64,000 bases of DNA, from assembly GCF_024138165.1 (NCBI RefSeq), contig NZ_CP100004.1, positions 62,001-126,000 on the forward strand, in the 5' to 3' direction. Below the pieces are notes generated by a model. That model worked only from the letters and a program-made list of their open reading frames with translations. It was not told the DNA's origin and made no database searches. The stretch comes from Halorussus vallis. GTDB lineage: Archaea > Halobacteriota > Halobacteria > Halobacteriales > Haladaptataceae. Positions 7,174 to 52,948 of this stretch are shown here, piece after piece. A program made the translations under genes and the position numbers. How positions within the stretch are numbered: the stretch's first letter is position 1; every line of letters begins with the position of its first letter.

Positions 7174-7251
7174 GGGACGGAAATTGAATAGGCGTGGGCG
7201 CGTCCATCCCGCTGGCAGTCGGCAGGAGTTCGGAAGAGGACTCCCACCGAC
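7174..7251 (-). ncRNA. structured leader a: minihelix-like stem plus CGCCCACGCCTA stem-loop
   Basis: On the minus strand, a TATA box (near 7283-7290) is followed 35 bases later by a stem GTCGG/CCGAC (7251-7247 with 7222-7218) enclosing a hairpin GGAGT/ACTCC. Next is an 8-bp stem GGGATGGA/TCCGTCCC (7210-7203 with 7181-7174, one G-U) whose loop carries CGCCCACGCCTA (7200-7189). The T-loop is degenerate here. The order matches leaders b-d. The transcript would run into the 9-bp repeats upstream of parA; it may be a small RNA or a long parA leader. Confidence 0.55.
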
Positions 7252-7401
7252 TTCTACGCTACTGGTAGTCATTCAGTCTCGGCTATAAATGTTTCTGGTT
7301 CCCCGGCGTAACCGTCTTTCAGAACGGAACAACCCCGAGAAGTGAACTCCGAGACGGACGTTCAATCGTCGGACTCGGGACCGGAATCTACTCGGTCCCG
7401 G

Positions 7402-7542
7402 TCACGCTCGATGCACTCGCGTTCGGAGCAACTGAATTCGAACCAGATAGTAGGTCGAGAGGAACGCCGTCATGGCCAGCGTCCCGATGAGTAGTCCCCA
7501 AAGCAGGTGGGCGAGATACTCGAAGAACAGCAGTTCGAACAT
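7402..7542 (-). CDS. 46-residue single-pass membrane protein
   Basis: The ATG at 7542 overlaps the stop of the adenine methyltransferase (TGATG). The protein starts MFELLFFEYLAHLLWG and has one long hydrophobic helix (about residues 4-32), then a basic tail (LRTRVHRA). Translation is likely coupled. The role is unknown; small membrane peptides after phage-type methyltransferases are not a family I can name. Confidence 0.55.
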   Translation of the reverse strand: MFELLFFEYLAHLLWGLLIGTLAMTAFLSTYYLVRIQLLRTRVHRA

Positions 7543-8135
7543 CACCGCATACCTCCGAGTTCCGTCTGTGGATGTTCGTTGACGACGGTGCGACCCTCGA
7601 CGACTATGCCGAGTTGGTTGAGCGCGTCAACGAGGTCGCCGGGAACGTCGTCAGCGTAGACAGCGAGCACCAGTTCAAAGCTGGGGTTCCGGTCTTCGCC
7701 GCGGAACGGGATGCGCCCCGGCCCGACGAGACAGAACACGTCCGCAGCGGCCACATGGTCGTGGAAGACGTGGCTACTGGTATCGCAGGGGAGCAGCATC
7801 ACGACGCCATCGACGGTGTCGCGGGCGGCCTCGTTACGAGCCTTCCGTGCCCACTTCTTCTTCTTCGCGTTCCCGTCGCCGTTGCTTGACCACGGCGGAT
7901 TCAGCCACACCCAGCCGTCCCACCCTTGCCGGAGGCCGTCGTTTTCGGTGGTGTACCGCGTGGGCGCGATAGGCTCCAGTTCCGCGCCGGAGGCCGGGTC
8001 GGTATCGAAGCCGTCGACGGCGCGAGCGAGTGGCCGCCAAATCTTGGGCGGGGTCGCGTACTCGTTGTCCGTCGGGTCCTGCTCGTGGCCGAGGCGAACA
8101 CCGTGAGCAGTTGCGTCCGTTGATTGCTCGGTCAT
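7542..8135 (-). CDS. dam: phage-type DNA N6-adenine methyltransferase (Dam)
   Basis: A 197-residue protein beginning MTEQSTDATAHG, with YATPPKIWRPL near the start, WLNPPWS near residue 80 (the NPPY-like catalytic motif of amino-methyltransferases) and a conserved C-terminal FRGEDRNPSFELVLAV block. This matches the phage Dam family (PF05869). It transfers methyl from S-adenosylmethionine to adenine N6, probably to protect element DNA from host restriction. Its 5' end overlaps the m5C methyltransferase frame by about 300 bases. Confidence 0.88.
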   Translation of the reverse strand: MTEQSTDATAHGVRLGHEQDPTDNEYATPPKIWRPLARAVDGFDTDPASGAELEPIAPTRYTTENDGLRQGWDGWVWLNPPWSSNGDGNAKKKKWARKARNEAARDTVDGVVMLLPCDTSSHVFHDHVAAADVFCLVGPGRIPFRGEDRNPSFELVLAVYADDVPGDLVDALNQLGIVVEGRTVVNEHPQTELGGMR

Positions 8136-9906
8136 CTGAAACCACCTCCTCGTAGGACGGGATTTCAGCCTCGGACTCATCAGCGAGACCGCCGCCGAAC
8201 GTTGCGAGACTCGGGTCCTCGGCGGTCAGGACGTGCTTGCACAGGCTCTTCGCCAAATTCACCGGCACCGCATTCCCAATCTGCGCAGTTCTGTCGGTCT
8301 TCGTCCCGGCGATTTCGTACTCGGCGGGGAAGCCTTGGGCCTGCTGGAGTTCGCGCGGCTGGAGCATCCGGTAGCGGACGTCGATGCCCCACGGCCAGAG
8401 TTCCGGGACGCAGAGCGCAAAGCGGTCGCGGCTGGTGACCGTGCCGAGCGGCTGGTCGAGCGACTTCGGCGGCCCCTCGTAGTCGTCGATGAACGGATGA
8501 ACGACTGGTGAGGCGAGTCCTGCCGGACTCTTCGATGCGGTGACCGTCATGAGCGGCCGGTCAACCGCCCGCGTCCGTGGGCGCTGTCCCGGTCGGCCGT
8601 TGTAGAGCGGGCAGAGGTACGGCGAAGAGAGCGCGAAGACGCCGCCCCTCTCGGTCGCGATGGTCGGCATCGGGTCCGTGACGTCGAGCGCCCTGCCACC
8701 GTGCGAGTACCGGACCAGCGACGGCGAGACGAGTTTCGCCCGCGGGTCAGCCGTAATCGTGTGGAACGGCTGGCGACCCGCCGGGTAGAGCGGGTTACTG
8801 TGCAGGCCGCGATAGCGGCCATTCTTCGGCATCACGAGCGAGTGCGTCTCCGTCGTGACGATAGCGTGACCGCCACGCGTCGCAATCGTCGGCACCGGGG
8901 ACTCCTCGACGTCGACCGGATGTGCGCCGTCCTGCTGGCGCAGAAGGTGCGTCGTCGCCATCGCGGCCCCACGGCCGGGGAGCGGCACCAGAAACGGTTC
9001 GTCGGCGATGCTGGCGACCGTCGCAGCGTGCTCGGCAGGGACAATGCGCTCCTCGCGAAGCCGATAGATGTCGTCTTTGCCCAGCGTTTCGAGAACATCT
9101 GCGAACGGAACGGCCGTGTCACCGCAGTGGCGGCGGAGTCCCTCGGCAATACGCTGCATGGTCGAGTTCTTCGGCGGAGTCTTCCGGCCGTCGTCGATGT
9201 CACGGGTCCAAATCGAGCCGCCCAGGTCCGACCAGTCGATAATCTCCGCGGCCGTCCGGTGGTCGGGGAGATCGTCGCGGTCGTCGCTGTGCGTTGGGGC
9301 GGGGAAGGTGACGCTCCCGGCCTGCCGTCCGATGATGAAGAAGCGTTTTCGGGTGGTCGGGTCGCCGTAGTCGGCCGCGACGAGTTGGGTCCAGTCGACC
9401 GCGTAGCCGAGTTGGTTCAGCGCATTTATCCACGCGTCGAAAATCGAACCGTCTCTGACGGGCTGGCCGTCCTCGACGGGACCCCAATCCTGTATCTCGG
9501 GCACGTTCTCGATGACGAACGCGTCGACGTCGAGCTTCTCCAGCCAGTCGAGGACGTGCCACGGCGACATCCGCTTCTGCTCGCTGACTGGCTTGCCGCC
9601 GCGAGCACGACTGAAGTGCGTGCATTCGGGACCGCCGACGAGAAGGTCGACGTCGAGGTCGGCCTGCTCGTCGTCGGCGAGCTTCTGGATGACGTCCGGT
9701 GGGTGGAGTTGCTCGACCTTGCTATGATACTGGTGCGCAGTCGGGTGGTTCGCCTTGTGCGTCTCGATGGCTGGGTCCCAGTGATTGATGGCGGCTTCGC
9801 GGAGTTCGTAGCCAAGTTCCTCGTAGGCCTGTCGGAGGCCCTCGCTGAAGCCGCCTGCACCACAAAAGAGGTCGACGGCAACGATTTCACCAGTAGTTGA
9901 AAGCAC
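7834..9906 (-). CDS. dcm: DNA cytosine-5 methyltransferase
   Basis: The motifs appear in order: DLFCGAGGFSEGL (motif I), GGPECTHFSRARGG near residue 92 (motif IV, with the catalytic Cys), FVIENVPE (motif VI), a long variable target-recognition region containing repeated PLxTxT-like units, and QIGNAVPVNLAKSL (motif X). The GTG at 9906 is preferred: it directly precedes motif I and follows a TATA-like GATAATCTG by about 40 bases. The last ~100 residues lie over the adenine methyltransferase gene and look like frame read-through (Arg-rich). It probably masks sites against restriction. Confidence 0.9.
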   Translation of the reverse strand: MLSTTGEIVAVDLFCGAGGFSEGLRQAYEELGYELREAAINHWDPAIETHKANHPTAHQYHSKVEQLHPPDVIQKLADDEQADLDVDLLVGGPECTHFSRARGGKPVSEQKRMSPWHVLDWLEKLDVDAFVIENVPEIQDWGPVEDGQPVRDGSIFDAWINALNQLGYAVDWTQLVAADYGDPTTRKRFFIIGRQAGSVTFPAPTHSDDRDDLPDHRTAAEIIDWSDLGGSIWTRDIDDGRKTPPKNSTMQRIAEGLRRHCGDTAVPFADVLETLGKDDIYRLREERIVPAEHAATVASIADEPFLVPLPGRGAAMATTHLLRQQDGAHPVDVEESPVPTIATRGGHAIVTTETHSLVMPKNGRYRGLHSNPLYPAGRQPFHTITADPRAKLVSPSLVRYSHGGRALDVTDPMPTIATERGGVFALSSPYLCPLYNGRPGQRPRTRAVDRPLMTVTASKSPAGLASPVVHPFIDDYEGPPKSLDQPLGTVTSRDRFALCVPELWPWGIDVRYRMLQPRELQQAQGFPAEYEIAGTKTDRTAQIGNAVPVNLAKSLCKHVLTAEDPSLATFGGGLADESEAEIPSYEEVVSDDRAINGRNCSRCSPRPRAGPDGQRVRDPAQDLAATRSRRRRLRYRPGLRRGTGAYRAHAVHHRKRRPPARVGRLGVAESAVVKQRRREREEEEVGTEGS

Positions 9907-10101
9907 GGGACAAAACCGGAACCGATACTGACCCACTCGGTGCAGATTATCGACGAAGACGCGACTGGCTACGAAGACTCTTCTGAGAAGTGCGCTGTTT
10001 CTGATAGGATGGCGGAGAATCACGGACGAAACGCGAGAACGAGCGACTACTGACGAGTGCTGCGGCTCACCGTTTTGCTACCACGAAAAGGCGCTCAGGC
10101 G

Positions 10102-12282
10102 TCAGCCGAACTCCGCGTCCGGGAACTCCAAGTTCAGACTGAGGCCACTGAGGACGCGCCGGTCAAGTTCGTCCAGGTACGTCGCCTGCTTCACCACGAT
10201 CTCGTCATCGTCCCGGTCGGGACTCTGGTCGGCGACCGCCGTGTTCAGCATCACCCACCCGTTGTACAGCAGGTTCTCCATCATCCAGAGGAACCGCCGG
10301 TAGCCGAGGTCGCGTGACCGCGTCTTGGCCGCGAACGTCCCTTTCTTGTCCCGGAACGCCGTCTCCACGCCCCACCTGTCACGGTAGAGCCGACCGATTC
10401 CCCACGCCGACCCTTCCGGATCGTGGCCGATGGGGTTCTCGTCCGGGTCGATCCCGGCGCGGTCAACGCTCTTGCTCGTGATGATGCAGAAGTAGTCGAT
10501 CTCCTCTTCGTCCTCGTGGGGCTCCTCGATGGCCTGGTCAAGCGTCAGCTGCCCCTCGGCGACATCCTCCTCTTCGTCGTCGCCGAAGTCATCGAGCGTG
10601 GTGTCTGGTTCGTCCTCTTCGTCGTCCTTCTTCTTGTGGTCGGGAACGCTCTTGAAGTCCTTCTCCAGCCCCACGAGCGTCGTGTTGTGCGTGCGGCGGC
10701 GACCGCTACTTGACAGCGTCCAGTTGCTGTCCCAATCCGCGCGGCCATCGAAGCCTTCGACCGTGTCCTTCACCGCGTCGGTCGCGCCTTTCCGAATCGC
10801 GTAGTCACAGCCGCACTGGCGGATGTACCGGCATATCTTCGTGTCCACGAACTCGGCGTCGGCCATCACCGTGTCGATGTTCACGAGCTCCCGAGCGCGG
10901 TCAAGGATGTACCGAACGCCCTGGAACTGGTCGTTCGGTGGGAGGTACGACAGGGAGGCGATGATGAACGCCCGTCCGTTGATTTTGATGGTGCCCTGGA
11001 GTTCCTTCCAGGCGTAGCCGGTATCGAGGTGGCTCTGCTTGTGGACGCCAACCGGCGGGTCGCTCTTCACCGAGGAGTGGCGGCTGTGGTCGTGCGTGGT
11101 GTAGTCGATCCGGAGGTTGAACGTGTCGTCTTCGTCGATGACCTCCTCTTCGTCCCGAAGCCACTCTATCTGGCGCTCAATGGCGTCTTCCGTCCTGAGG
11201 TGCCACGTCGCGGTCTCTCCCTCCGGATTGTGTGGGTCGATAGTCCATTCCTCTTCGAGGGCGTCGCGGAGATCGCCGGTCACGAGGTGCGGGTCTACGA
11301 GGTCGTGCGGCGGTATCCACCGCGCGCCGTAGGCGTCGTGATCGTCCTCGTAGTAGCCCTCGATCTTCGTGCGTTCGACGTTCCGAACTGTCCGTCGGAA
11401 CGTCTGTGGAGTGAAGACGCCCCACTCTTCGGTGCCGTCTTCGCGCTCCTCGATCAGGCCGTAGTCCTTGCCCATCCGACTGATGCCTTCTTCCGCGTAG
11501 TCGTTCCGCCGGCACATGTGCGCCCCGGCGTCGGTGATGAGGTCGCCGTCCCACTCGAAGGAGTCGTCACGGTCGTACGAACAGACGTCCCGGATGATGT
11601 CGGCCTGGATGGTGTAGGCGTCCTCCTTGATTCCCTGCTCCATCTCGCCGATGGGGTCTACGTCAGGTTCGTCGGCGGTGTGGTCGGTGATGAGGTTGTC
11701 GCGGATGTTTTCCGCAGTCTCCAGCTCGTAGTCCTCGGCCTTCACCGCGCACTCGGCGGCCATGTACCGGACGTGGTCGCGGAAGCCGGGACGTACGCGC
11801 GTCATCCACTGCTCCCGGAGCGTCCGCTCGCTCGGTGTCTCGCCGTCGAAGCCGAGGCTGGTGGCGAGGTCGTCGTTCTCGTCCAGGCGGTCGGCCAGTT
11901 GCTCCCAACTGACAACGGAGTAGCCGTCGGAGGGCGCGATGAGGCGGTAGATCCACGCGCACACCATCGGCTTGAAGTCGTAGTCGGAACCGGGCTTCAG
12001 GTCGTCCTCGGGGACGGCGTCGATGAGCGGCGGCCTGATGACGTCGGTGACGTCGTCGTAGCGGTCGGCGAGTTCGCCGCGGAGGGCTTCGATTGCGCCG
12101 TCAAGCGAATCGAGATCGAGGTCTTCAGGAGAGTTGTCCGGAGCGTCGTCGTGCGGTTCCCGCACCGTCTTCTCGGGAACTTGTTCGGGTGGGGCGTAGA
12201 GGTCGTCAGAATCGTTTTCGGCGATGGCCTCGACCAATCCATCGGGGTCGTCCCGGGTGTCTTGGTCGGGGCCTTTGTCCAT
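10102..12282 (-). CDS. IS4-superfamily transposase, unusually large
   Basis: A 726-residue protein. The motif YRDRWGVETAFRDKK near residue 630 fits the Y-(2)-R-(3)-E-(6)-K signature of IS4-type DDE transposases; the earlier DDE aspartates probably lie in YTTHDHS and VMADAEFVDTK. A very acidic insertion (KKKDDEEDEPDTTLDDFGDD and following) splits the catalytic core. The N-terminal 300 residues resemble no usual IS4 part. A TATA box (CTTATAAACC, minus strand) predicts a leaderless start. No terminal inverted repeats are visible, so this may be a domesticated or immobile copy. Confidence 0.8.
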   Translation of the reverse strand: MDKGPDQDTRDDPDGLVEAIAENDSDDLYAPPEQVPEKTVREPHDDAPDNSPEDLDLDSLDGAIEALRGELADRYDDVTDVIRPPLIDAVPEDDLKPGSDYDFKPMVCAWIYRLIAPSDGYSVVSWEQLADRLDENDDLATSLGFDGETPSERTLREQWMTRVRPGFRDHVRYMAAECAVKAEDYELETAENIRDNLITDHTADEPDVDPIGEMEQGIKEDAYTIQADIIRDVCSYDRDDSFEWDGDLITDAGAHMCRRNDYAEEGISRMGKDYGLIEEREDGTEEWGVFTPQTFRRTVRNVERTKIEGYYEDDHDAYGARWIPPHDLVDPHLVTGDLRDALEEEWTIDPHNPEGETATWHLRTEDAIERQIEWLRDEEEVIDEDDTFNLRIDYTTHDHSRHSSVKSDPPVGVHKQSHLDTGYAWKELQGTIKINGRAFIIASLSYLPPNDQFQGVRYILDRARELVNIDTVMADAEFVDTKICRYIRQCGCDYAIRKGATDAVKDTVEGFDGRADWDSNWTLSSSGRRRTHNTTLVGLEKDFKSVPDHKKKDDEEDEPDTTLDDFGDDEEEDVAEGQLTLDQAIEEPHEDEEEIDYFCIITSKSVDRAGIDPDENPIGHDPEGSAWGIGRLYRDRWGVETAFRDKKGTFAAKTRSRDLGYRRFLWMMENLLYNGWVMLNTAVADQSPDRDDDEIVVKQATYLDELDRRVLSGLSLNLEFPDAEFG

Positions 12283-12339
12283 ACCGGGGACATGTCTCTC
12301 TTGGTTTATAAGCTCTGCTCCGCGTGGAGTAAGGGAAGC

Positions 12340-12573
12340 CTACTCGGGAATCCAGTACGAGACGCGGTTCTCTGTGTGTTTCTTCTTGGAGAGTTCGCCC
12401 TCTTCAACCAGGGAGTCAAGCCGTCGTTGAACCGTCCATCGGGAGGCGTCAGGGAAGACATCGACAAGGTCTGAGACGATGTAGGGCTCGCAGCGATTCA
12501 TCTCTTCGAGAACCTGCTGCGGCGTCGGCTCCTCGGGTGTCCGCGGCACATTGTTGCTGTCAGTCTCGGGCAT
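12340..12573 (-). CDS. winged-helix DNA-binding regulator, probable operon repressor
   Basis: A 77-residue protein. YIVSDLVDVFPDASRWTVQR then LDSLVEEGELSKKK form a classic wHTH with a basic recognition helix, and YWIPE is the last beta strand. The gene is divergent from the 12700-17906 operon; the intervening 126 bases hold four TGCACC-N4-GGTGCA-like palindromes, two of them around its own TATA element (AATAAAGG near 12604-12611). Autoregulation and repression of the operon are inferred from this layout. Confidence 0.75.
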   Translation of the reverse strand: MPETDSNNVPRTPEEPTPQQVLEEMNRCEPYIVSDLVDVFPDASRWTVQRRLDSLVEEGELSKKKHTENRVSYWIPE

Positions 12574-12582
12574 CCTTATAGA

Positions 12583-12693
12583 TGCACCATGTGGGGCAAC
12601 GACCTTTATTCTTCCCCACACGGTGCAGAATAGGCTGCCGTCCGTTCTGCACCACACGGGGCAAAACTTATGTGGTCTGCACCACACGGTGCA
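12583..12693. promoter_or_regulatory. four palindromic operators in a divergent promoter
   Basis: 16-bp sites occur at 12583-12598 (TGCACCATGTGGGGCA), 12612-12627 (TTCCCCACACGGTGCA), 12648-12663 (TGCACCACACGGGGCA) and 12678-12693 (TGCACCACACGGTGCA). The first lies between the TATA and start of the wHTH gene and the second abuts its TATA. The last two bracket the rightward TATA-like CTTATG. Two further sites at 17913-17957 have the same spacing. They are probably bound by the neighbouring wHTH protein. Confidence 0.75.
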
Positions 12694-12699
12694 TATACA

Positions 12700-12933
12700 A
12701 TGAGCGTTCCAGCCTACGTCGAAGGAAAAGACCTCAGCCGCTACGCGGATGAACACGGAATCGAGAAGAACACGCTCGTGCGGTCGAAGTGGGACAAGGC
12801 GACCTACCAGGCCGTCAAAGTCACCGACACGTACGTCGCCTTCGACAACGGCGAGAAGCACACCCACCGCGACCTCGCCAACTCCGTGGAGAACGGCACC
12901 ATCGAGGTCATCGGCCAGCGCTCCACGAGGTAA
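12700..12933 (+). CDS. small protein, first gene of zinc-ribbon operon
   Basis: A 77-residue protein (MSVPAYVEGKDLSRYADEHG, later VKVTDTYVAFDNGEKHTHRD). The ATG at 12700 is 7 bases after an operator and about 30 after the TATA-like element, consistent with a leaderless start. A helical first half and a beta-rich second half suggest a small DNA-binding or Tudor/KOW-like fold, but no family is certain. Confidence 0.65.
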   Translation: MSVPAYVEGKDLSRYADEHGIEKNTLVRSKWDKATYQAVKVTDTYVAFDNGEKHTHRDLANSVENGTIEVIGQRSTR

Positions 12934-12935
12934 CG

Positions 12936-13220
12936 GTGAGCGCCACCAGCCAATCCGTCGAACCGGAGCAGTTCGTTGGAAGCAGCCACGACCTGGAGAC
13001 TGGCGACGAGATCATCACGAACTACGGCGGCTCGTTCGACTCGTGGGGCAAGACGGTCGAAGAGCAGCCCGAGATGGGCGAAGACCACGAGGACTGGTTC
13101 AAGGTCAAGGGCGATTGGGACGGCGCTGCCTGCTACGACCTCTGGTACAGCTTCCGAACCAGCAAGTGGTACATGAGCCGGAACGCGCAGACCGAGAAAG
13201 TTCACGTCTACAAGGTATGA
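12936..13220 (+). CDS. small hypothetical protein
   Basis: A 94-residue acidic protein starting at GTG 12936, two bases after the previous stop. It is rich in Trp and Tyr (DSWGKTVEEQPEM, DWFKVKGDWDGAACYDLWYS), with a globular beta-type pattern. No family recognised. It overlaps the next ATG by four bases (ATGA), so it belongs to the coupled operon. Confidence 0.6.
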   Translation: MSATSQSVEPEQFVGSSHDLETGDEIITNYGGSFDSWGKTVEEQPEMGEDHEDWFKVKGDWDGAACYDLWYSFRTSKWYMSRNAQTEKVHVYKV

Positions 13221-13462: not shown

Positions 13463-13463
13463 G

Positions 13464-14126: not shown

Positions 14127-14145
14127 GATGCAGCGAGTGAACGTC

Positions 14146-14185
14146 GCCCTGGTCGGCGTACGTGGGTTCGATTCCCGCGCAGGGC
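14146..14185 (+). ncRNA. tRNA-like element A (minihelix)
   Basis: A 40-nt element 19 nt after the recombinase stop codon. GCCCTG 14146-14151 pairs with CAGGGC 14180-14185. Stacked on it, CGTGGG 14161-14166 pairs with CCCGCG 14174-14179 around the T-loop TTCGATT. A 9-nt linker takes the place of the D and anticodon arms. It has the same 6+6 bp architecture as the elements at 3171 and 57360. Confidence 0.7.
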
Positions 14186-14189
14186 TTCT

Positions 14190-14368
14190 GCCCGCACTGT
14201 GGTGGAGCGCGACACGAGTACCACGCCGTTGGGGGCGAGAGACACGGCGAATCCAAGCCAACGGTCGCCCCTTCGCCGATGTTCCCCATGACGGGGCGCG
14301 CCACACGGCGCTAAGGCGACGGGTGGGAAACGGTCGCGTGCTGCCGGGTTCGACTCCCGGGGCGGGCA
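14190..14368 (+). ncRNA. tRNA-like element B with large internal insertion
   Basis: Acceptor GCCCGC 14190-14195 pairs with GCGGGC 14362-14367, with A14368 in the discriminator position. T-arm CCGGG-TTCGACT-CCCGG spans 14344-14360. A D-arm-like stem GTGG/CCAC follows the acceptor. Instead of an anticodon arm there are about 110 nt of further hairpins, such as CCGTTGG 14225-14231 with CCAACGG 14258-14264. It starts 4 nt after element A. It could be a tRNA-like structure carrying a guest RNA domain or intron, or a degenerate tRNA. Confidence 0.55.
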
Positions 14369-14371
14369 CTC

Positions 14372-14542
14372 GGATGGATAGCTCAAGGGTAGAGAGGATG
14401 ACTCGCGTCTGCCCCCGTAGATTACCCCCGACAGGCTGGCCGGGAGACGCGCCCGATGTTGCCCCCTGTCGGTGTGGAAGAGCGGCTCCGTTCCCACGGA
14501 GTGGCGCATCGCAACGTGCGGGTTCGAGTCCCGCTCCATCCA
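14372..14542 (+). ncRNA. tRNA-like element C, closest to a true tRNA
   Basis: Perfect 7-bp acceptor GGATGGA 14372-14378 with TCCATCC 14535-14541 and discriminator A14542. T-arm GCGGG-TTCGAGT-CCCGC lies directly adjacent. The D-arm TAGCTCAAGGGTAGAG contains the conserved GG and A positions. An anticodon stem GATG/CATC can form (14397-14400 with 14507-14510), but roughly 100 nt separate the strands, containing an 8-bp helix CCGACAGG/CCTGTCGG and a hairpin CTCCGT/ACGGAG. This fits an intron-bearing tRNA or a tRNA mimic; the anticodon cannot be assigned safely. Confidence 0.55.
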
Positions 14543-14544
14543 TC

Positions 14545-14687
14545 GGGCCACATGGGAGTGGCCGCCCGAATCAACTGAGTCGTGGGATGTCCCGCAGCTG
14601 GAGGACGCTCCAGTTAGTCCGCGAGGGAGAGGGACTACCCCACGGTGAAGAAACGGCGGTGAGCGGGTTCGAATCCCGACTGGCCCA
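14545..14687 (+). ncRNA. tRNA-like element D
   Basis: Acceptor GGGCCA 14545-14550 pairs with TGGCCC 14681-14686, then A14687. T-arm CGGG-TTCGAAT-CCCG spans 14664-14678. The interior holds hairpins CTGGAG-GACG-CTCCAG near 14598-14613 and TAGTCC/GGACTA near 14615-14637. The element starts 2 nt after C, so A-D are packed end to end, as in processed tRNA arrays. The next gene starts 28 nt downstream. Confidence 0.5.
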
Positions 14688-14715
14688 TTGGGTGGCGACC
14701 TACGCCGTGATTAAC

Positions 14716-18265: not shown

Positions 18266-18314
18266 GCTCGACGCGCGAGGACAAGGTAGGCGTGGGCGCG
18301 TCCCGGCGTCGAGC
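18266..18314 (-). ncRNA. CGCCCACGCCTA stem-loop b
   Basis: On the minus strand a perfect 8-bp stem, GCTCGACG (18314-18307) with CGTCGAGC (18273-18266), closes a 33-nt loop that contains GGGACGCGCCCACGCCTA. The core 12-mer is at 18298-18287. The stem sequence is unrelated to those of the other copies while the loop is conserved, as expected for a protein- or RNA-binding loop. Confidence 0.65.
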
Positions 18315-18319: not shown

Positions 18320-18362
18320 CCCCTCCGGGGAATCGAACCCCGGCATCGTGCGCCAGCAGAGG
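18320..18362 (-). ncRNA. tRNA-like acceptor/T-arm minihelix b
   Basis: Minus strand: CCTCT (18362-18358) pairs with AGGGG (18324-18320, one G-U), and the adjoining 6-bp T-arm CCGGGG-TTCGATT-CCCCGG lies at 18343-18325. A 14-nt linker replaces the other arms. The TATA box GTTTATATC is centred 32 bases upstream, so the transcript should begin within a few bases of the element. Confidence 0.7.
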
Positions 18363-19434: not shown

Positions 19435-19493
19435 CCCGAGACAGACCAAGAGCGGAGTCGAGTAGGCGTGGGCGCGTCCCGGTCTCTCTCGGG
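19435..19493 (-). ncRNA. CGCCCACGCCTA stem-loop c
   Basis: Minus strand: CCCGAGAGAGACC (19493-19481) pairs with GGTCTGTCTCGGG (19447-19435), 12 of 13 positions. The 33-nt loop starts GGGACGCGCCCACGCCTA; the core is at 19474-19463. This is the longest stem of the family. Confidence 0.7.
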
Positions 19494-19496: not shown

Positions 19497-19548
19497 TCTC
19501 GCCTTCGGAATCGAACCGAACCCACCGTGGGGCGACCACGCGACGAGA
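19497..19548 (-). ncRNA. tRNA-like element c with an extra arm
   Basis: Minus strand: a 7-bp acceptor TCTCGTC (19548-19542) with GGCGAGA (19503-19497, one G-U), then a hairpin CGTGG/CCACG (19540-19526), then T-arm TTCGG-TTCGATT-CCGAA (19520-19504). This is the canonical 7+5 tRNA acceptor/T geometry with one arm instead of two. Stem-loop c begins 3 bases later. Confidence 0.7.
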
Positions 19549-21342: not shown

Positions 21343-21396
21343 CCACCGGAAACGCACTCCAGATAGGCGTGGGCGCTGAGCGCACGTTTCGGGTGG
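21343..21396 (-). ncRNA. CGCCCACGCCTA stem-loop d
   Basis: Minus strand: CCACCCGAAACG (21396-21385) pairs with CGTTTCCGGTGG (21354-21343) with one mismatch in 12. The loop carries CAGCGCCCACGCCTATCTGG, with the core at 21375-21364. It ends 12 bases before the PadR start codon. Confidence 0.7.
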
Positions 21397-21401
21397 ACAT
21401 G

Positions 21402-21455
21402 GCCGATTCTGGACTTGAACCAGAGGGGTCGGGCGACCCTCGCACCTGCGTCGGC
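21402..21455 (-). ncRNA. tRNA-like element d with extra hairpin
   Basis: Minus strand: GCCGA (21455-21451) pairs with TCGGC (21406-21402); an internal hairpin GGGTCG-CC-CGACCC follows; then T-arm TCTGG-TTCAAGT-CCAGA (21424-21408). One unpaired A separates T-stem and acceptor. Stem-loop d begins 5 bases later. It sits in the PadR leader. Confidence 0.65.
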
Positions 21456-27646: not shown

Positions 27647-27716
27647 TGTGCATCCGTCCGGGAAGCCGACAGGATTTGTTCGGGTATGCGTGCAAGCACG
27701 TAGGCCGGGAGTTCCC

Positions 27717-27749
27717 GCGACGTAGGCGTGGGCTTCTGTTTTTCGTCGC
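27717..27749 (-). ncRNA. CCCACGCCTA stem-loop e in operon leader
   Basis: Minus strand: GCGACG (27749-27744) pairs with CGTCGC (27722-27717), and the 21-nt loop holds AGCCCACGCCTA (11 of the 12 core bases). It is followed by the small hairpins CGGG-AACT-CCCG and CGTGC-TT-GCACG. It lies in the leader of the 27.6 to 21.6 kb operon. No tRNA-like minihelix is visible here. Confidence 0.55.
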
Positions 27750-27862
27750 AGGGTCCGACCGTCGGTCTTCCCTTATCACCCTCATTTCAGGCAGGTGTAA
27801 TAATACTTTCCCTCCGTCAGTCGATGAAGGGTTTATATGCGACGCATGAGAAGACAGGGGTA

Positions 27863-29901: not shown

Positions 29902-29914
29902 TGCTTGTTAGCCC
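29902..29914 (-). promoter_or_regulatory. orc1 start-region 13-mer shared with origin hairpins
   Basis: The last bases before the orc1 ATG read GGGCTAACAAGCAG on the minus strand. The 13-mer GGGCTAACAAGCA is identical to the loops of the two hairpins at 30536 and 30593 on the plus strand. It is probably a translation or transcript control site. Confidence 0.6.
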
Positions 29915-30535: not shown

Positions 30536-30569
30536 CGAGGTCAGTTTTGGGCTAACAAGCATGACCTCG
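30536..30569. ncRNA. origin hairpin 1 with GGGCTAACAAGCA loop
   Basis: CGAGGTCA 30536-30543 pairs with TGACCTCG 30562-30569; the 18-base loop is GTTTTGGGCTAACAAGCA. GAACC follows. The second hairpin downstream has the same loop end but a different, still perfect, stem. If transcribed leftward, the loop is antisense to the orc1 start region. Confidence 0.65.
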
Positions 30570-30592: not shown

Positions 30593-30626
30593 CGTGACCG
30601 ATTTCGGGCTAACAAGCACGGTCACG
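30593..30626. ncRNA. origin hairpin 2 with GGGCTAACAAGCA loop
   Basis: CGTGACCG 30593-30600 pairs with CGGTCACG 30619-30626; the 18-base loop is ATTTCGGGCTAACAAGCA, then GAACC. Four of the eight base pairs differ from hairpin 1 in both strands, so pairing is conserved while sequence is not. Confidence 0.65.
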
Positions 30627-30650: not shown

Positions 30651-30697
30651 CGCGCCCACGCCTAAATGGGTACGTGCGTGCATTCGTAGGCATGCAC
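30651..30697 (+). other. CGCCCACGCCTA copy f and adjoining hairpin
   Basis: GGGACGCGCCCACGCCTAAA is centred at 30653-30664, directly after the two origin hairpins. A hairpin GTGCGTGC 30674-30681 with GCATGCAC 30690-30697, loop ATTCGTAG, then TTTT, follows and could terminate rightward RNA. No stem enclosing the 12-mer is evident in this copy. Confidence 0.5.
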
Positions 30698-31320: not shown

Positions 31321-31386
31321 TTATAAACTAGATTGGTAGGGTAAGCCCGCACGCGCCCACGCCTAACATCGGTACGCCGCGGGCTT
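31321..31386 (+). ncRNA. CGCCCACGCCTA stem-loop g at a transcript start
   Basis: TATA box TTATAAA 31321-31327, then a perfect 8-bp stem AAGCCCGC 31343-31350 with GCGGGCTT 31379-31386, enclosing ACGCGCCCACGCCTAACATC and 8 more bases. The hairpin CTGG-CCGGGA-CCAG follows. Leader of the gene at 31516; the predicted transcription start is close to the stem. Confidence 0.65.
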
Positions 31387-38896: not shown

Positions 38897-39271
38897 ATGA
38901 CGGATGGACCGAGAGAGTACGACCGAGAGTTCTCGACGCCACACGAACACCGAGTTCGGCGTCGGATCGGGTACAGTCACGACCACGGCGAAGTGACGCG
39001 ATTCGTCGTGCAGTTAGAGTACAAGCTGGACGACCGGTGGGCTGAAATCGTCCGGTTTGACCACGACCCTGCGAGCGACTTCGGCCACGACGTTTCAAAG
39101 GAGGGCGTTCACATGGACGTGTACCGCGACGGTGAGAAGATCCAGTCGGAGGAGGTCTTCCCGCCGATGCCGCCGGACGAGGCGCTGACGTTCGCCGAAG
39201 AACACTTGAACCAGCACGCCGAACGATACATCAAGAGGTTTGAGGAATGGCACGGGATCAGGAACCTATGA
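38897..39271 (+). CDS. small protein of a possible two-gene pair
   Basis: A 124-residue protein (MTDGPREYDREFSTPHEHRV). RFVVQLEYKLDDRWAEIVRF and SKEGVHMDVYRDGEKIQSEE form a beta-sheet core. It resembles short haloarchaeal proteins often paired with a tiny partner. Overlap of four bases with the next ORF suggests a toxin-antitoxin-like or regulatory pair; no catalytic motif is evident. Confidence 0.55.
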   Translation: MTDGPREYDREFSTPHEHRVRRRIGYSHDHGEVTRFVVQLEYKLDDRWAEIVRFDHDPASDFGHDVSKEGVHMDVYRDGEKIQSEEVFPPMPPDEALTFAEEHLNQHAERYIKRFEEWHGIRNL

Positions 39272-46047: not shown

Positions 46048-46224
46048 TCCGCAACTACAGTTCTACGAGATTCCGAACCAACAGAGTGTGAGAGCCATGT
46101 TTACGAATCCACGACAGAACCACCTCCGGTACGAGACAGGTGGAGTACCCCCGCCTCCGAAACTGGCGGCCATACTCCCCAGTGAATCATCTTCTGACCA
46201 TCCCAATTCCGGCAGTCTTCAGCA
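46048..46224. other. spacer before secreted-protein cassette
   Basis: 177 bases with no convincing ORF or strong hairpin; contains no obvious TATA box. Probably a leader or read-through region from the surface-protein gene into the cassette. Confidence 0.35.
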
Positions 46225-47211: not shown

Positions 47212-47214
47212 ACG

Positions 47215-47475
47215 ATGGCTGGAAGTAAACGTAGAGATGCGGCCGTTCGCTTCGGCGGCGGCCTGTTCTACTATCTTGCGTTCATACTCGTCGCACCGAT
47301 CTTGTTCGGTGTGTCGATACTCTGGTTCCTCGTCGACGTTCTCTACCAGCTTGTTACTGGCAAGGAGGGCTTGAGCGACGACGGTATGGTGCCCCGAGCG
47401 TACAGGAAGACGCAGGGCACCGGGACGTGGGCGTTGTTCGGTGATTCCGACAGTCCGCGTTGGGGCCGGAAGTAG
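47215..47475 (+). CDS. small membrane protein
   Basis: An 86-residue protein with one or two hydrophobic helices (GGGLFYYLAFILVAPILFGV, SILWFLVDVLYQLVTG) and a polar tail. Starts 3 bases after the secreted-protein stop. Part of the cassette. A tRNA-like minihelix lies 31 bases after its stop. Confidence 0.6.
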   Translation: MAGSKRRDAAVRFGGGLFYYLAFILVAPILFGVSILWFLVDVLYQLVTGKEGLSDDGMVPRAYRKTQGTGTWALFGDSDSPRWGRK

Positions 47476-47505
47476 CACCGACACCAGTAGTACCCCTACC
47501 TGAAA

Positions 47506-47549
47506 CCCATCTTTGGAGCAGTTGGTCTGGTTCGACTCCGGACGTGGGC
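47506..47549 (+). ncRNA. tRNA-like acceptor/T-arm minihelix in cassette
   Basis: T-arm GTCTGG 47525-47530, loop TTCGACT, CCGGAC 47538-47543 (one G-U). Stacked acceptor CCCAT 47506-47510 with GTGGG 47544-47548 (one G-U). A 14-nt linker. It lies between the membrane protein gene and the next secreted-protein gene, whose ATG is 16 nt downstream; a natural place for RNA cleavage. Confidence 0.6.
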
Positions 47550-47565
47550 GTTATAGACTGTTATC

Positions 47566-48207
47566 ATGATACAGGTACATCCCAGATTCGCGAGTATCGT
47601 TTTCGCCGTGCTCCTCGTGTCGAGTGCGGTCGCAACACCAACCCTTGCCGCTGAAGAAGACGATAATTTCTTTGACGGTCTTGTGAGCGACGACGATGGG
47701 CCGAGTCTGCTTGAACGTGCCGCGGTGAAAGCCGCCGGGATTTCGGGGTGGTTCGCTCGCGCGGACTTCCCCGGCTTCGGGAGTGACGAGTCGGGGAGTG
47801 CGATCGAGTACGCGAATGATTTCCAGTCGGAGTTCAATTCGAACAACAAGAGTATCGAGTCGTATGCGAGCGAGCGACTGAACCCCACAACTGGGTACGA
47901 TACGTTCGCGGTGTACTTCCACGACAAGAGCGGCGCGAACGTGACGCGGTACGTTGTCGCGGACGTGTCGAACGGAAGCTGGTCGAACGCCCGTGTCGTC
48001 GCGTCGACGAATCGGAGTGTCGACCACTGGATTTCGGCGGACTGGTACGCGAGCAAGCACACCGCCGACGAGTTGGATACGTTCGTCGAGGAGTACGCGG
48101 AACTGAACCAGGGCCTCACGCGGGGCTACCAGCTAAAGCTCGTCGCGAAGTACGGGAGTGGCCTTGAGAGCGACATGTGGGCGCGGAATCGGAGTGACTC
48201 GGAATGA
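47566..48207 (+). CDS. secreted protein
   Basis: A 213-residue protein. Signal peptide (FASIVFAVLLVSSAVATPTL, cleavage near LAAEE). The mature chain is acidic with helical ARADFPGFGSDESGS and a beta-like YDTFAVYFHDKSGANVTRYV. No family recognised. Overlaps the next gene by four bases. Confidence 0.6.
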   Translation: MIQVHPRFASIVFAVLLVSSAVATPTLAAEEDDNFFDGLVSDDDGPSLLERAAVKAAGISGWFARADFPGFGSDESGSAIEYANDFQSEFNSNNKSIESYASERLNPTTGYDTFAVYFHDKSGANVTRYVVADVSNGSWSNARVVASTNRSVDHWISADWYASKHTADELDTFVEEYAELNQGLTRGYQLKLVAKYGSGLESDMWARNRSDSE

Positions 48208-48461
48208 ATCTCGATAGAATACAGCGACGGAACGGGATGAATCGGCTTGGAATGCATGTCCTTCTCTTGCTCGCGGTTTCGATCATCGTCTGGCTAGGGA
48301 TAACAACACGGGCATGGCCGGTGTTTGACGCGGGCCAGTTCATCTACGAGCATATCCAAATCGTCCCCCCGGAGTTCGAGGACGGCCTCGCTCAAGTCCT
48401 TCTCGTCGACGTGGTGTTCGTGTTCGTCGAACTCGGCTTCTATCTCGGAGGTGACGCCTGA
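48204..48461 (+). CDS. small two-helix membrane protein
   Basis: An 85-residue protein with hydrophobic segments at residues 16-35 (GMHVLLLLAVSIIVWLGITT) and 66-82 (VLLVDVVFVFVELGFYL). Coupled to both neighbours. Unknown role in the membrane cassette. Confidence 0.6.
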   Translation: MNLDRIQRRNGMNRLGMHVLLLLAVSIIVWLGITTRAWPVFDAGQFIYEHIQIVPPEFEDGLAQVLLVDVVFVFVELGFYLGGDA

Positions 48462-48994
48462 TGCCGTTTGACGATGACCGTCGAGAGAAGTCGAAACAGC
48501 ATCGTGAAGCCGCCTATTCGCGGTGGGAGAACACCACGGACCATGTGAAACGCAAGTCACGAGAGGGCGTGACGGACGCGCTCATATTCGTGCTGGGACT
48601 CCCGATGACCCTGTTCGGGTTCCTCGCCCGACAGACCGTGGGGACGTGGCGGCGGACTCGCGGATTCCTCGGATGGATTACGCTAGACCGCTTGATGCCG
48701 TCGGGGTTGGCGGGCGCGATTCAGGAAGTAATCGACCTTCTCCCGAAGGCGCTTGGACTCCGGGGGACGCCACGCACGAAGCAGTTCTCGGCGGCTGTGA
48801 TTCTCGGTGTGCTCGCGTATTTTGCGACGTTCCTGACGGGTGGCCTGCTCATCGGCGCGGCGGTGGTTCTTACGCTCATGGTGGTTGTCGCGCTCGGTCG
48901 GAATATCCCGTTCGTGAATCGGACGTGGCAGGACACGACGGCGAAACTCCCCGTCAAGAACGACTACGATATTATCGGGTGGGAGCGTGACTGA
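48461..48994 (+). CDS. membrane protein
   Basis: A 177-residue protein: charged N-terminus (REKSKQHREAAYSRWENTTD), a hydrophobic segment around ALIFVLGLPMTLFGFLARQT and another pair at AAVILGVLAYFATFLTGGLL and IGAAVVLTLMVVVALG. Starts on the last base of the previous stop. Possibly an assembly or channel component. Confidence 0.6.
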   Translation: MPFDDDRREKSKQHREAAYSRWENTTDHVKRKSREGVTDALIFVLGLPMTLFGFLARQTVGTWRRTRGFLGWITLDRLMPSGLAGAIQEVIDLLPKALGLRGTPRTKQFSAAVILGVLAYFATFLTGGLLIGAAVVLTLMVVVALGRNIPFVNRTWQDTTAKLPVKNDYDIIGWERD

Positions 48995-48996
48995 TT

Positions 48997-49314
48997 ATGC
49001 CTGACCTCCGTCAACGACTCCGCGGAAGCGGAAGCGTGGACCGTGACGTGTTCTCGGGGCGCTCGATAGCGAAGGGCGTCTCGATAGGGTTGTTCTTCGC
49101 GCTTGTGCTCGTGTTCCTCGTGTTGAGTGTGGCCGCGAATTCGGTCGTTATCGTCGTTTTCGCGGGCGTCATCCTCAGCCAGTTCCTCTACGTGGTTCTC
49201 CCGATTCAGCGAATCCGGGGGAAGGCACATCGACTGTGGACGGGTGAGGCGGGGGAGGACGCCTACGAGGACGCACAGTCCTATCGCTCGAAGGCCTGGG
49301 GGTGGTTCAAGTGA
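48997..49314 (+). CDS. small membrane protein
   Basis: A 105-residue protein. Two adjacent hydrophobic helices (GVSIGLFFALVLVFLVLSVA, VVIVVFAGVILSQFLYVV) between charged ends. It is the third consecutive small membrane gene in the cassette. Overlaps the next gene by four bases (GTGA). Confidence 0.6.
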   Translation: MPDLRQRLRGSGSVDRDVFSGRSIAKGVSIGLFFALVLVFLVLSVAANSVVIVVFAGVILSQFLYVVLPIQRIRGKAHRLWTGEAGEDAYEDAQSYRSKAWGWFK

Positions 49315-50243
49315 CTGCTCGAAATCCGGCGGTCGCGCTCGCGGTCATGCTCGTCGTCGCGTCGATTACAGCGGTCGTTCCGGCGACGCCCGCCCGCGCA
49401 GGCGAGTCCGAGAGCCAGTGTTCGAACATGGTCGTGCATGATGCCTTCCGGTTCGATAATAGTACGGTGGAGAAGGCACGGAATTCGTCGGCGACCTCCA
49501 CAGTCTCGAATACGGAAGTCACCATCGAACAGGCAACCGGGTTCATTCGAGTCTCGGCGGAGAACCCGAATGGGTACTGTAACGAATTCCACGTCCGTCT
49601 CGACAAATCCATCGTCTCGCCCGCGGAACTCGGGTCGGTTGATTCGAACGACGGGAATTACTCGGCGGACTGGCATGCCACCCGTGACTTCTCGCGGAAC
49701 GAGACGTACACGGAGGTTGTGTTAACGCTTCCCGCCGGAACCAAAGCCACGTTCGCGCCCTCCGAACTCCGCGTGAAATCGCTGTCGTGGACAGGGAAGG
49801 CTGAGAGCGCCGGGTCCGAACTGTTCGGGAACATCAGTCTCCCGGACTTCTTCGGGTCGGACGACCTCGAACAACGCACCTACGATTTCTCGCCGGAGGG
49901 CGCGAACAACTCGACGATTATCACGGTCGCGCTCTCGAATCAGTCGGACGGCCGGAGCATCGACGAATGGCAGGCGTCCTACCGCACGAGTCCGGACGGC
50001 GAGTGGTCTCCCGTCTCGAAAGAGAGCACCGCGCCCGTGTTCTACCGGAAGACCGACAGCGAACACGTCCAGTTCATCTTCAACGATGCGAACGCGACCG
50101 TCGAGTTCACGGCGAATCCAACGTTCACGGACAAAGCCCGCCACTCGTGGCGGAGCTACGACTTCGGACTCGACCGACTCAAAGGACTCGTGAACATCTC
50201 AAATCTATTCTGGATACAGCCCCCGAGGAGCCTGATAGCATGA
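49311..50243 (+). CDS. secreted protein
   Basis: A 310-residue protein from GTG 49311. Signal peptide (PAVALAVMLVVASITAVVPA). The mature chain is beta-rich with many sequons (NSTV, NSSA, NETY, NNST). The C-terminus DRLKGLVNISNLFWIQPPRS may dock to membrane. Possible surface component coupled to the following small membrane gene. Confidence 0.6.
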   Translation: MTARNPAVALAVMLVVASITAVVPATPARAGESESQCSNMVVHDAFRFDNSTVEKARNSSATSTVSNTEVTIEQATGFIRVSAENPNGYCNEFHVRLDKSIVSPAELGSVDSNDGNYSADWHATRDFSRNETYTEVVLTLPAGTKATFAPSELRVKSLSWTGKAESAGSELFGNISLPDFFGSDDLEQRTYDFSPEGANNSTIITVALSNQSDGRSIDEWQASYRTSPDGEWSPVSKESTAPVFYRKTDSEHVQFIFNDANATVEFTANPTFTDKARHSWRSYDFGLDRLKGLVNISNLFWIQPPRSLIA

Positions 50244-50491
50244 GTGGAACGTTCGACAAGATCGTCTTCGGCCTCGCGGCCGTCGCGTTCCTACCTGCGG
50301 TCTTGGCGGGCGGCGGATTCATCATCGCGTTCGTGCTCGCCGTGTCGGTCGTCGTGGGCGCGTACGGCGGCCGTGAGGGCCTCGATTTGCTGAAGAAACA
50401 GCACATCGGGTCGAAGGCTGGCGCGCGACGGCGAGACGTACAGGACGCTATCAGTGGCGACAGTACGGACGATACCTGGGGGCGAGAATAG
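50240..50491 (+). CDS. small membrane protein
   Basis: An 83-residue protein with two hydrophobic segments (IVFGLAAVAFLPAVLAGGGF, IIAFVLAVSVVVGAYG) and a basic then acidic tail (KAGARRRDVQDAI). Four-base overlap upstream and abutting downstream gene. Confidence 0.6.
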   Translation: MSGTFDKIVFGLAAVAFLPAVLAGGGFIIAFVLAVSVVVGAYGGREGLDLLKKQHIGSKAGARRRDVQDAISGDSTDDTWGRE

Positions 50492-50779
50492 ATGGAGCCG
50501 ATGTACTTCATCCCGATAGCCGTTCTCGTCGCGGTCGTCGTTGGCAATCTGCTGTTCGGCCGCTATTCGGGCGGGTCGCACACGCTCGCGGCGACGTTCG
50601 GCCTCGTGCGGAACGTCGGGCTTGCGCTCGTCGGGATTCTCACGATGATGGGCGGCACGTGGTTTCACATTGCGGTCGGCATGACGCTGTTGACCGCGAG
50701 TTGGTATCTCGGCCGCGGCCACGCCTCCCGACTTGACGGTACGAACAGCGGAAGCCTCCGCGGGAAACTCAACGGCTAA
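50492..50779 (+). CDS. small membrane protein
   Basis: A 95-residue protein with about three hydrophobic helices (MYFIPIAVLVAVVVGNLLFG, NVGLALVGILTMMGGTWF, VGMTLLTASWYLG). The start ATG directly follows the preceding stop. Unknown. Confidence 0.6.
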   Translation: MEPMYFIPIAVLVAVVVGNLLFGRYSGGSHTLAATFGLVRNVGLALVGILTMMGGTWFHIAVGMTLLTASWYLGRGHASRLDGTNSGSLRGKLNG

Positions 50780-50805
50780 ATGCACACCCCCGCATCTGTC
50801 GGGGC

Positions 50806-50864
50806 GACGTCGCGTCGCTCCAACGTCTTTTTCTCGCGGTCGGGATTCTAACCGGGTTCGAACT
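50806..50864 (+). other. weak tRNA-like stem before membrane gene
   Basis: CTGTCGG and CCGACAG (about 50806-50812 with 50858-50864) form a 7-bp stem that encloses CGGGTTCGAACTC, a T-loop-like string without a proper T-stem. The gene at 50903 follows after 38 nt. Possibly a degenerate member of the minihelix family. Confidence 0.3.
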
Positions 50865-50902
50865 CACCGACAGTACGCGGAATCAACGACAATTCACGAA
50901 CC

Positions 50903-52078
50903 ATGATTCACGAATCAATAACGAAGCTTCGGCAGACGTATCGAGTGGTAAACCGGAAAGCGGTCGCGGGTGACCTGTTCGGGACGATGGTCGCTATCGT
51001 CCTCGCGTATGTAGTCACGGAATACCTGACGCTGTGGGAGGTCGGCAGTGGCGAATGGTCGGTCGCAGACCTCGGATTCTCGACCGGGCTACTGTCGACA
51101 GTCGCCCTCGGAATCATCGCTGCATTCATCGTAGCACCGTTTTTCTATGGCGTCTGGCAACTCGTCGACCGGCGGTATGGCGACCAACGACCCTTACTCC
51201 AAATAGTCGGCGTTTGGGCCGTCACGGGACTCATCGTGCCGGCCGTTGTAGTCGCTGTCTACATCCTCTCGGATTTGGACGGTATCGCCCGACTCATTAC
51301 GTCGCCGGAACTCATGCAGGTCGCCACCGAAGCGTGGGAGTCGTTCACCACGGCCGCCGGGAAAACCCTCTGCTTGTCGCTGTTCCCGTCGCTGTTCACG
51401 GGCGTCTACCACCGCTTCTCGACCGGCGACTGGACGGTCCGAACGCGACGCTTCCACGTGACCGTCGCGGTCGTCCTTGTGGTCCTCGTCGCGGCCGTTG
51501 GTGCGTCTGCAACGCTCTCACCGACGAGCGAGACCGCCGAATCCAGCACCGACATTAGCGTCGCTGACCCGTCCGACCCGGCGGCGTATGGGGACGGACT
51601 CTACGGGCCGAGTTTCGACCCGGCGGAGAATGTAAACCAGTCCTACGGCGAGTACCAGTCCGGCACGGTCCTCGCGTGCGGTTCTATAGACTCGCCGAAA
51701 GCCGTCGAATCCTACACGCCAAAACAGACGTACGCTGGCCCGAAGAACTTCGAAATCGCTCCCGGTCAAATCAATACCGAGAGCAGTGTCGTCACGCTCG
51801 ACACTCGGTACTCCGTCCGTTTGACAGACTGGGCGCTTCGGAACGCGACAATCATCAACAGCGGATACTACGGTGAGAATCCTACGGACCACAATTACTG
51901 GGTTGGGACGACCTCCTACGACGAACCTGGTGGGTATGACGATATCCACGACGGGCTTCGGGTTCCGATGGAGAACGTCGAATCAGTTCACGTCTACGTC
52001 GACGTAGTTCGGGACGGCGAGATTCACCGCTACGTGACCGCGGTCTGCCCGAACGGAGGAGGTTCCGGTGGCGCTTGA
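50903..52078 (+). CDS. polytopic membrane protein with exterior domain
   Basis: A 391-residue protein. About four N-terminal transmembrane helices (GTMVAIVLAYVVTEYLTL, TVALGIIAAFIVAPFFYGVW, IVGVWAVTGLIVPAVVVAVY) plus one at VTVAVVLVVLVAAVGASATL, then a 180-residue exterior beta-rich domain with sequons and the end VCPNGGGSGGA. Layout resembles a membrane-anchored receptor or assembly scaffold; no family known. Confidence 0.65.
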   Translation: MIHESITKLRQTYRVVNRKAVAGDLFGTMVAIVLAYVVTEYLTLWEVGSGEWSVADLGFSTGLLSTVALGIIAAFIVAPFFYGVWQLVDRRYGDQRPLLQIVGVWAVTGLIVPAVVVAVYILSDLDGIARLITSPELMQVATEAWESFTTAAGKTLCLSLFPSLFTGVYHRFSTGDWTVRTRRFHVTVAVVLVVLVAAVGASATLSPTSETAESSTDISVADPSDPAAYGDGLYGPSFDPAENVNQSYGEYQSGTVLACGSIDSPKAVESYTPKQTYAGPKNFEIAPGQINTESSVVTLDTRYSVRLTDWALRNATIINSGYYGENPTDHNYWVGTTSYDEPGGYDDIHDGLRVPMENVESVHVYVDVVRDGEIHRYVTAVCPNGGGSGGA

Positions 52079-52343
52079 AGGCGAAGGCACCGTCCAGGGC
52101 GTCGGCCACACGGACAACATCCAGTTCTACGTCCCGAAGGACGTGCGCGCCGACTCCTTACAGGTGTTCGACCCCGGCGACGAGTTCGTGGTCCGCGTCC
52201 TCCCGCACTCGGGCCTGCTACTCCGACCGCCCGACGTCGACGTATCATTCGCCACGCTCCTCGCGGCGCTCGGAGAATCCCCCGACCGCTTCGCCGACAA
52301 CTGCTCGCTCACCGCGACCGACCTCAAGGAACTAACCTTATGA
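52068..52343 (+). CDS. small soluble protein, SpoVT/AbrB-like strands
   Basis: A 91-residue protein from GTG 52068. VGHTDNIQFYVPKDVRADSL then FVVRVLPHSGLLLRPPDVDV resemble the AbrB-type swapped hairpin (strand, IP/VPKDVR turn, strand). Overlaps the membrane gene by eleven bases. Perhaps a small DNA-binding regulator of the cassette. Confidence 0.55.
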   Translation: MALEGEGTVQGVGHTDNIQFYVPKDVRADSLQVFDPGDEFVVRVLPHSGLLLRPPDVDVSFATLLAALGESPDRFADNCSLTATDLKELTL

Positions 52344-52948
52344 GTTACACGCCCACGCCTACGGTACGCCAGCAGACTCGCCAGCAGAGCATCGACTACC
52401 TACAGAACGAGTTCCGACTCTCGCTCGGGTACGTCACGGACGCCGAACTGAAATCGGACATCATCGACTGGATGACCCGGAGCGACCAACTCCCGGAGTC
52501 AACCGTGCTCGACTATATCGAGCGGCGGCTGTCGGACCTCCGGAGTCGCGACGACGGCACGCACGTCTCTCAGTTCGATATGTATCGGTCAGGCGACGAC
52601 GGGACCGCGGAGTTCCCGGACGCCTGCCAAGGCTGTACGCACTACGGGACGCGGTGTCCCGTGTTCTGTGGGACGACCCAACAATCACAGCGCGAACAGC
52701 TACAGGACGAACTGGTCGATGAACCCCCGGCGCGAGTCAAGAATCAGTATCGGTCGTTCGCCCAACGCAACGACTGCCACCGGATTCCGGCGTTCATCGC
52801 GGAGTACGAGGACCGCTACAAAGATCTCACGCGGGAAGGCTGGGAACTATACCGGCGTCTCGACACGGACGTTGGACACACGGACGAACAGTTAGAGGGC
52901 GAGTCGCTCGCGTCGGACCCGTCGACGGAGGCGGTCGCCGATGACTAA
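52340..52948 (+). CDS. hypothetical protein with Cys cluster; CGCCCACGCCTA in its first codons
   Basis: A 202-residue protein. MSYTPTPTVRQQTRQQSIDY, a helical region, then ACQGCTHYGTRCPVFC (near residue 93), four Cys that could hold zinc or Fe-S. The first codons contain the 12-mer CGCCCACGCCTA at 52350-52361, the only copy inside a clear coding frame. Coupled to both neighbours. Confidence 0.6.
   Translation: MSYTPTPTVRQQTRQQSIDYLQNEFRLSLGYVTDAELKSDIIDWMTRSDQLPESTVLDYIERRLSDLRSRDDGTHVSQFDMYRSGDDGTAEFPDACQGCTHYGTRCPVFCGTTQQSQREQLQDELVDEPPARVKNQYRSFAQRNDCHRIPAFIAEYEDRYKDLTREGWELYRRLDTDVGHTDEQLEGESLASDPSTEAVADD

Follow-up and report, generated by a model that had tools for sequence, protein, structure and literature searches.

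Hairpin leaders with a shared loop sequence and tRNA-like t-elements on a pR1SE-family plasmid of Halorussus vallis

Haloarchaeal mRNAs are mostly leaderless, and to our knowledge leader control of archaeal plasmid and virus genes is little known. In Haloferax, a t-element located before 5S rRNA is cut by tRNase Z and RNase P, according to the passages of PMC4326828 that cite Hoelzle 2008 and 2012; t-elements of mRNA leaders may already figure in those two papers. Haloviruses of the HF1/HF2 group have intergenic repeats and odd tRNA-like genes, as reported in extracts of PMC8707807 and PMC7230728. The pR1SE-like plasmids (apHPVs, PMC10818511) have core genes in common with the plasmid studied here, among them those for a 792-aa protein and a subtilase, and in the portion of that description covered by a word search neither tRNA nor leader is mentioned.

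We analysed a 64,000-nt stretch of Halorussus vallis DNA (the window), which corresponds to positions 62001-126000 of contig C5 (130,675 bp) in a genome of 5.05 Mb; coordinates without a contig name are window positions. The plasmid belongs to the pR1SE family, carrying its conserved core block with the subtilase and the 792-aa protein. Relatives of the window protein at 57897-60275 were found in 27 of 391 genomes and on 14 PLSDB plasmids, one of which is pR1SE from Halorubrum lacusprofundi; the phage collection had none. The plasmid also encodes a TFIIB-type transcription factor (TFB; 1980-2900, +), which could confer its own promoter preference.

Distribution of the 12-mer on the plasmid

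The original prediction listed seven exact copies of the 12-mer CGCCCACGCCTA and one copy with a single mismatch, and we re-located all eight in the window at the same coordinates and on the same strands. Its chance expectation of 0.01 agrees with our shuffle estimate once this is scaled to exact matches; when up to 2 mismatches were allowed, the window held 16 matches, compared with 7.9 in dinucleotide shuffles. Across the whole 5.05-Mb genome there are 12 exact matches, ten on C5 and two on the chromosome (3.96 Mb), both of the latter in genes and translated as Ala-His-Ala-Tyr. The two ends of C5 (C5:1-28198 and C5:102479-130675) form a 28.2 kb terminal redundancy of 99.97% identity, probably because the assembly of a circular plasmid overlaps itself. 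This end repeat implies a circular replicon of about 102.5 kb, with window 40479-64000 present again at the contig start, and because of it the ten C5 copies represent nine unique ones. The 12-mer is concentrated on the plasmid, with nine unique copies in ~102 kb versus the two coding copies on the chromosome, and matches in other members of the genus look like chance matches in coding sequence.

Leader hairpins and their loop on two elements

Six window copies lie in clear hairpins whose stems differ, as had been claimed (7189, 18287, 19463, 21364, 27723 and 31354), and the copy at C5:51335 likewise sits in the loop of a clear stem. The hairpin at 7174-7210 (−; stem GGGAUGGA/UCCGUCCC) has a TATA box ~90 nt upstream, no t-element and no ORF close downstream. 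The hairpin at 18266-18314 (−) stands directly behind a t-element and is followed by an ATG; the C5:51335 leader is a paralogue of this leader, 87% identical to it. At 19435-19493 (−; stem CCCGAGAGAGACC/GGUCUGUCUCGGG) a short ORF follows, and at 21343-21396 (−) a gene for a PadR-family regulator. The one-mismatch copy AGCCCACGCCTA is enclosed by a 9-bp stem, CCUGCGACG/CGUCGCGGG (27714-27753, −), and the hairpin AAGCCCGC/GCGGGCUU at 31343-31386 (+) has TATA-like boxes that put the start near its base and a 186-aa gene downstream. Apart from the one PadR-type regulator, genes behind 12-mer leaders are short or uncharacterised, and most 12-mer sites are incomplete, missing a t-element, a TATA or a clear gene. 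The expectation that the 12-mer points toward its downstream gene held at 18287, 19463, 21364, 27723 and 31354.

The stem is weak or absent at the other two window sites. The exact copy at 30653-30664 (+) carries a GGGACG extension, has no convincing stem and lies near the Cdc6 gene and origin-like repeats. The stemless exact copy at 52350-52361 (+) falls within the coding start of a 202-aa gene, ten bases past the ATG, and is probably a chance or separate occurrence. A second loop-like repeat, GGGCTAACAAGCA, is present beside Cdc6 in three exact copies (29902-29914, −; 30549-30561, +; 30606-30618, +), with 0.43 expected at 2 mismatches. Both plus-strand copies lie in long stems of different sequence, and these repeats are possibly origin elements.

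We assessed the stems by holding the 12-mer fixed, shuffling the flanks 2000 times and summing the longest stem over 14 sites on two elements, the plasmid and the relative described below. The observed sum was 110 bp, compared with 86.4 +/- 4.5 bp after shuffling, and none of the 2000 shuffles reached 110; chance copies of the 12-mer in the genus (n=14) had a mean stem of 5.5 bp. The case for the stems rests on this sum because single sites vary, and the stems at C7 49963 and C7 62967 were, taken singly, no better than shuffles. Across sites the loop sequence is kept while the stem sequence changes.

These results bear on whether the 12-mer acts as DNA. A plasmid transcription factor could bind the double-stranded 12-mer downstream of promoters, with incidental hairpins, and it would account for the clustering of copies near promoters and the Cdc6/origin region and for the stemless copies at 30653 and 52350. 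In addition, several regulators are encoded on the plasmid, and only the other 12-mer element shares its small winged-helix protein. We nevertheless consider a DNA operator unlikely, as the stems are longer than expected and change in sequence, the orientation is fixed relative to the gene, and the 12-mer lies inside the predicted transcript, directly behind a tRNA-like structure. The proposal that the 12-mer is an RNA-level motif of mRNA leaders is well supported by the variable-stem hairpins, by their placement between promoter TATA and ATG, and by conservation on a distant relative that extends to the leader of a homologous gene. The first reading of these leaders overlooked that, at several sites, a mini tRNA-like structure stands immediately upstream.

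The distant relative emerged from a search of related genomes for the motif within leaders, as had been proposed. We searched 391 class-level genomes for the 15-mer GACGCGCCCACGCCT, and found it in leaders only in the window genome and in G167, from another haloarchaeal family; four other genomes have one match each, apparently in coding sequence. Contig C7 of G167 (80.4 kb) has three copies of GACGCGCCCACGCCT and a fourth with the core CCCACGCCTG, and all four can form hairpins with new stems. C7 and the window plasmid have a syntenic core with mostly 25-50% amino-acid identity, and the same loop core is found in leader hairpins of both these distantly related elements. The hairpins at 27723 and at C7:52288 are counterparts, each followed by a short ORF (DQWTARI and DKWTAQI, respectively) and then by homologous genes, which indicates that at least one leader kept its loop and hairpin while the surroundings diverged.

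Beyond these two elements, which are the only 12-mer carriers among 24 family members, further searches gave no comparable leader. A T-arm combined with the 12-mer was found in no haloarchaeal leader among viral and GTDB contigs, the GTDB matches all being bacterial, and a 17-mer had eight matches in viral contigs, none with a matching hairpin by eye. BLAST of the 12-mer in plasmids returned no haloarchaeal match, and a de novo scan for a comparable loop repeat in other pR1SE relatives returned just CRISPR-like arrays and noise. Such regularly spaced CRISPR-like repeat arrays are present on the pR1SE-family-bearing contigs G198:C49, G389:C4 and G101:C2.

t-elements before hairpins and start codons

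Just before the 12-mer hairpin at 18287, 19463, 21364, C5:51335 and C7:62967 ends a structure composed of an acceptor-like stem, a short linker and a perfect T-arm (5 bp, loop TTCRANT). In most of these mini tRNA-like structures (t-elements) the linker is too short for an anticodon arm, which is absent. At 18320-18362 (−) the t-element reads CCTCT-linker-CGGGG TTCGATT CCCCG-AGGGG, and at 19499-19535 (−) TCGCC-CCACGGTGGG-TTCGG TTCGATT CCGAA-GGCGA. The structure at 21401-21455 (−) has an acceptor, a GG-containing arm, a short hairpin and a T-arm (TTCAAGT). The same acceptor and T-arm architecture, with a TTCRANT loop and no anticodon arm, precedes both host 5S rRNA genes (CCGAC-GTTGGACATAGTT-CGCGG TTCGATT CCGCG-A-GTCGG, then the 5S gene). 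ARAGORN called no functional tRNA gene in the window or in C5:1-60000. No known Rfam family matched at its gathering cut-off, and matches up to E 10 were at chance level alone.

The window has further t-elements away from the 12-mer. One at 3171-3209 (+), without a 12-mer hairpin, is followed by TT and then by the start codon of a DUF6884 gene (ATG at 3212). At 47506-47548 (+), a t-element-like T-arm with a 5-bp acceptor lies 17 nt upstream of the start codon (ATG) of a 213-aa gene. A mini t-element at 14146-14185 (+; GCCCTG...CAGGGC) is the first in a row of tRNA-like structures that reaches ~14690. Within this row (14146-14690, +), one tRNA-like structure has an acceptor of 7 perfectly matched bp, GGATGGA/TCCATCC, and, where a normal anticodon arm would be, a long insert; an ORF at ~14716 follows the row.

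We found 24 T-arms with an acceptor of at least 6 bp and a short linker in 24 pR1SE-family elements (1.63 Mb), compared with 0, 0 and 0 in Markov controls; pR1SE itself has two T-arms with 5-bp acceptors. A fixed GCCC/GGGC pattern has 24 sites, spread over 18 of 292 genomes, compared with none for the reversed control. The t-elements covary: among 32 of them, changes on both sides were seen at 9 of 10 pairs, with a score of 0.92 compared with 0.18 after shuffling. As this set was selected for pairing, its 100% paired figure holds by construction, and the evidence lies solely in the variety of pair types. The counts come from concatenated paired segments, as MAFFT did not align the raw mini-tRNAs correctly. 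A small number of the t-elements may fall within genes or be genuine tRNAs.

T-arm sequences are common integration sites, which raises the possibility that the 12-mer copies were left behind by a transposable element, mark its ends, or arose from tRNA genes as attachment sites. We regard such an origin as extremely improbable, since every T-stem and acceptor is different, with covariation between paired positions, and the printed contexts contain no target-site duplication. The flanks are unrelated between copies except for one paralogous pair, which likewise rules against a transposon scar or MITE.

t-elements also occur in tailed haloviruses. Those of HHTV-2 and HRTV-24 are absent from the annotation and stand ahead of a hairpin and then an ATG. 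The annotated start of HRTV-24 gp125 falls within a t-element (L045:2585-2628), and the ATG ~30 nt past the t-element is the likelier start. In apparent bacterial phages (e.g. L051, L075, L098, L132, L139 and L160), mini tRNA-like structures whose linkers include ATGGTCGCAGG were seen, without a control, shortly before ATG, and these may represent a wider phage leader type.

That the hairpins in the halovirus leaders have unrelated loops would suit a simpler account, in which the leaders are processing or stabilising devices only: the t-element is cut, the hairpin protects the new 5' end, and the loop persists through recent copying, as the recent paralogy of the 18287 and 51335 leaders might suggest. 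We give this account little credence, as the loop is identical across unrelated stems, including at sites without a t-element, and has been retained on an element whose proteins are mostly 25-50% identical to those of the window plasmid.

Predicted message ends, the loop's possible partner and known systems

The mini tRNA-like structure upstream of the hairpins sets the likely mechanism. Cleavage of the t-elements in these leaders is likely by analogy with the Haloferax t-element, and host tRNase Z, together with RNase P, would make this cut and so set the mRNA 5' end. The host 5S gene presumably starts about two bases past its acceptor. t-elements end two to four bases before an ATG at window 3171-3209 and in G205, G144 (17881), G389, G254 (58009), G386 and G062, and under the same spacing rule the 5' ends of their mRNAs would coincide with or adjoin the AUG, making these mRNAs leaderless. 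At the 12-mer sites, the cut is predicted to leave an mRNA that starts one to four bases before the hairpin. At two sites that lack a t-element (31354 and C7:56061), a TATA box would instead start transcription near the hairpin base, from contexts assessed by eye. A trans factor would then recognise the displayed loop, GGACGCGCCCACGCCUR, and may set the translation or stability of these messages as a group; an RNA-binding protein is the likeliest candidate.

Two proteins are common only to the two 12-mer elements among the 24: a DUF7718 protein (76% identity), encoded at 38897-39271, and the small winged-helix protein, whose gene is at C5:28324-28659. Fold searches with both gave no significant match and no obvious RNA-binding fold, and across 24 elements their tracking of the motif makes them weak candidates for the trans factor. 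Alternatively, the loop might pair with another loop or an antisense small RNA: 12 unpaired, GC-rich nucleotides would be well suited to a kissing contact, and the 7189 locus, with no close gene, may be a free-standing RNA. We find such pairing improbable, more so than a DNA operator: pairing of the loop with rRNA, SRP RNA and RNase P RNA was no better than that of shuffled loops, and the suggested complement in a small RNA did not materialise, as no antisense stood out on the plasmid and neither plasmid had a convincing shared site.

Taken together, the best explanation, which we think somewhat more probable than not, is a pR1SE-family leader hairpin with an invariant loop that is read in trans, with a t-element cut upstream. 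More tentatively, and short of what we would call probable, host-cut tRNA-like leaders may give leaderless or hairpin-fronted mRNAs on haloarchaeal plasmids and viruses in general, one plasmid lineage having added a fixed loop for a plasmid-encoded factor, which would amount to a post-transcriptional regulon of a vesicle-transmitted element. A fixed loop on differing stems near mRNA fronts points to an undescribed gene-control signal, and the invariant loop gives a way to look for an RNA-binding regulator in archaea. If a host rRNA-processing signal is reused ahead of numerous plasmid and virus genes, expression of mobile elements would be linked to tRNA processing enzymes. At several genes, the predicted cut ~two bases past the acceptor would put the AUG right at the 5' end so created.

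Each known system matches these leaders in part. mascRNA of MALAT1 (RF01684), a substrate of RNase P and tRNase Z, likewise uses a tRNA-like fold as a cutting signal in a longer RNA; 18318-18363 matches this family weakly (E 9.3) and, at a score of 17.9 versus a cut-off of 42.5, is not a member. In extracts of their descriptions, HF1/HF2-group haloviruses are similar in being compact, with intergenic control elements and unexplained tRNA-like sequences, whereas their repeats are AT-rich promoters, and a t-element and hairpin leader as in HRTV-24 and HHTV-2 is undescribed in those extracts. The Haloferax t-element has the same acceptor, short linker, perfect T-arm and missing anticodon arm, in the form that also stands before both host 5S genes; here, in contrast, it is found in plasmid and virus mRNA leaders, where it adjoins start codons or a loop-conserved hairpin.
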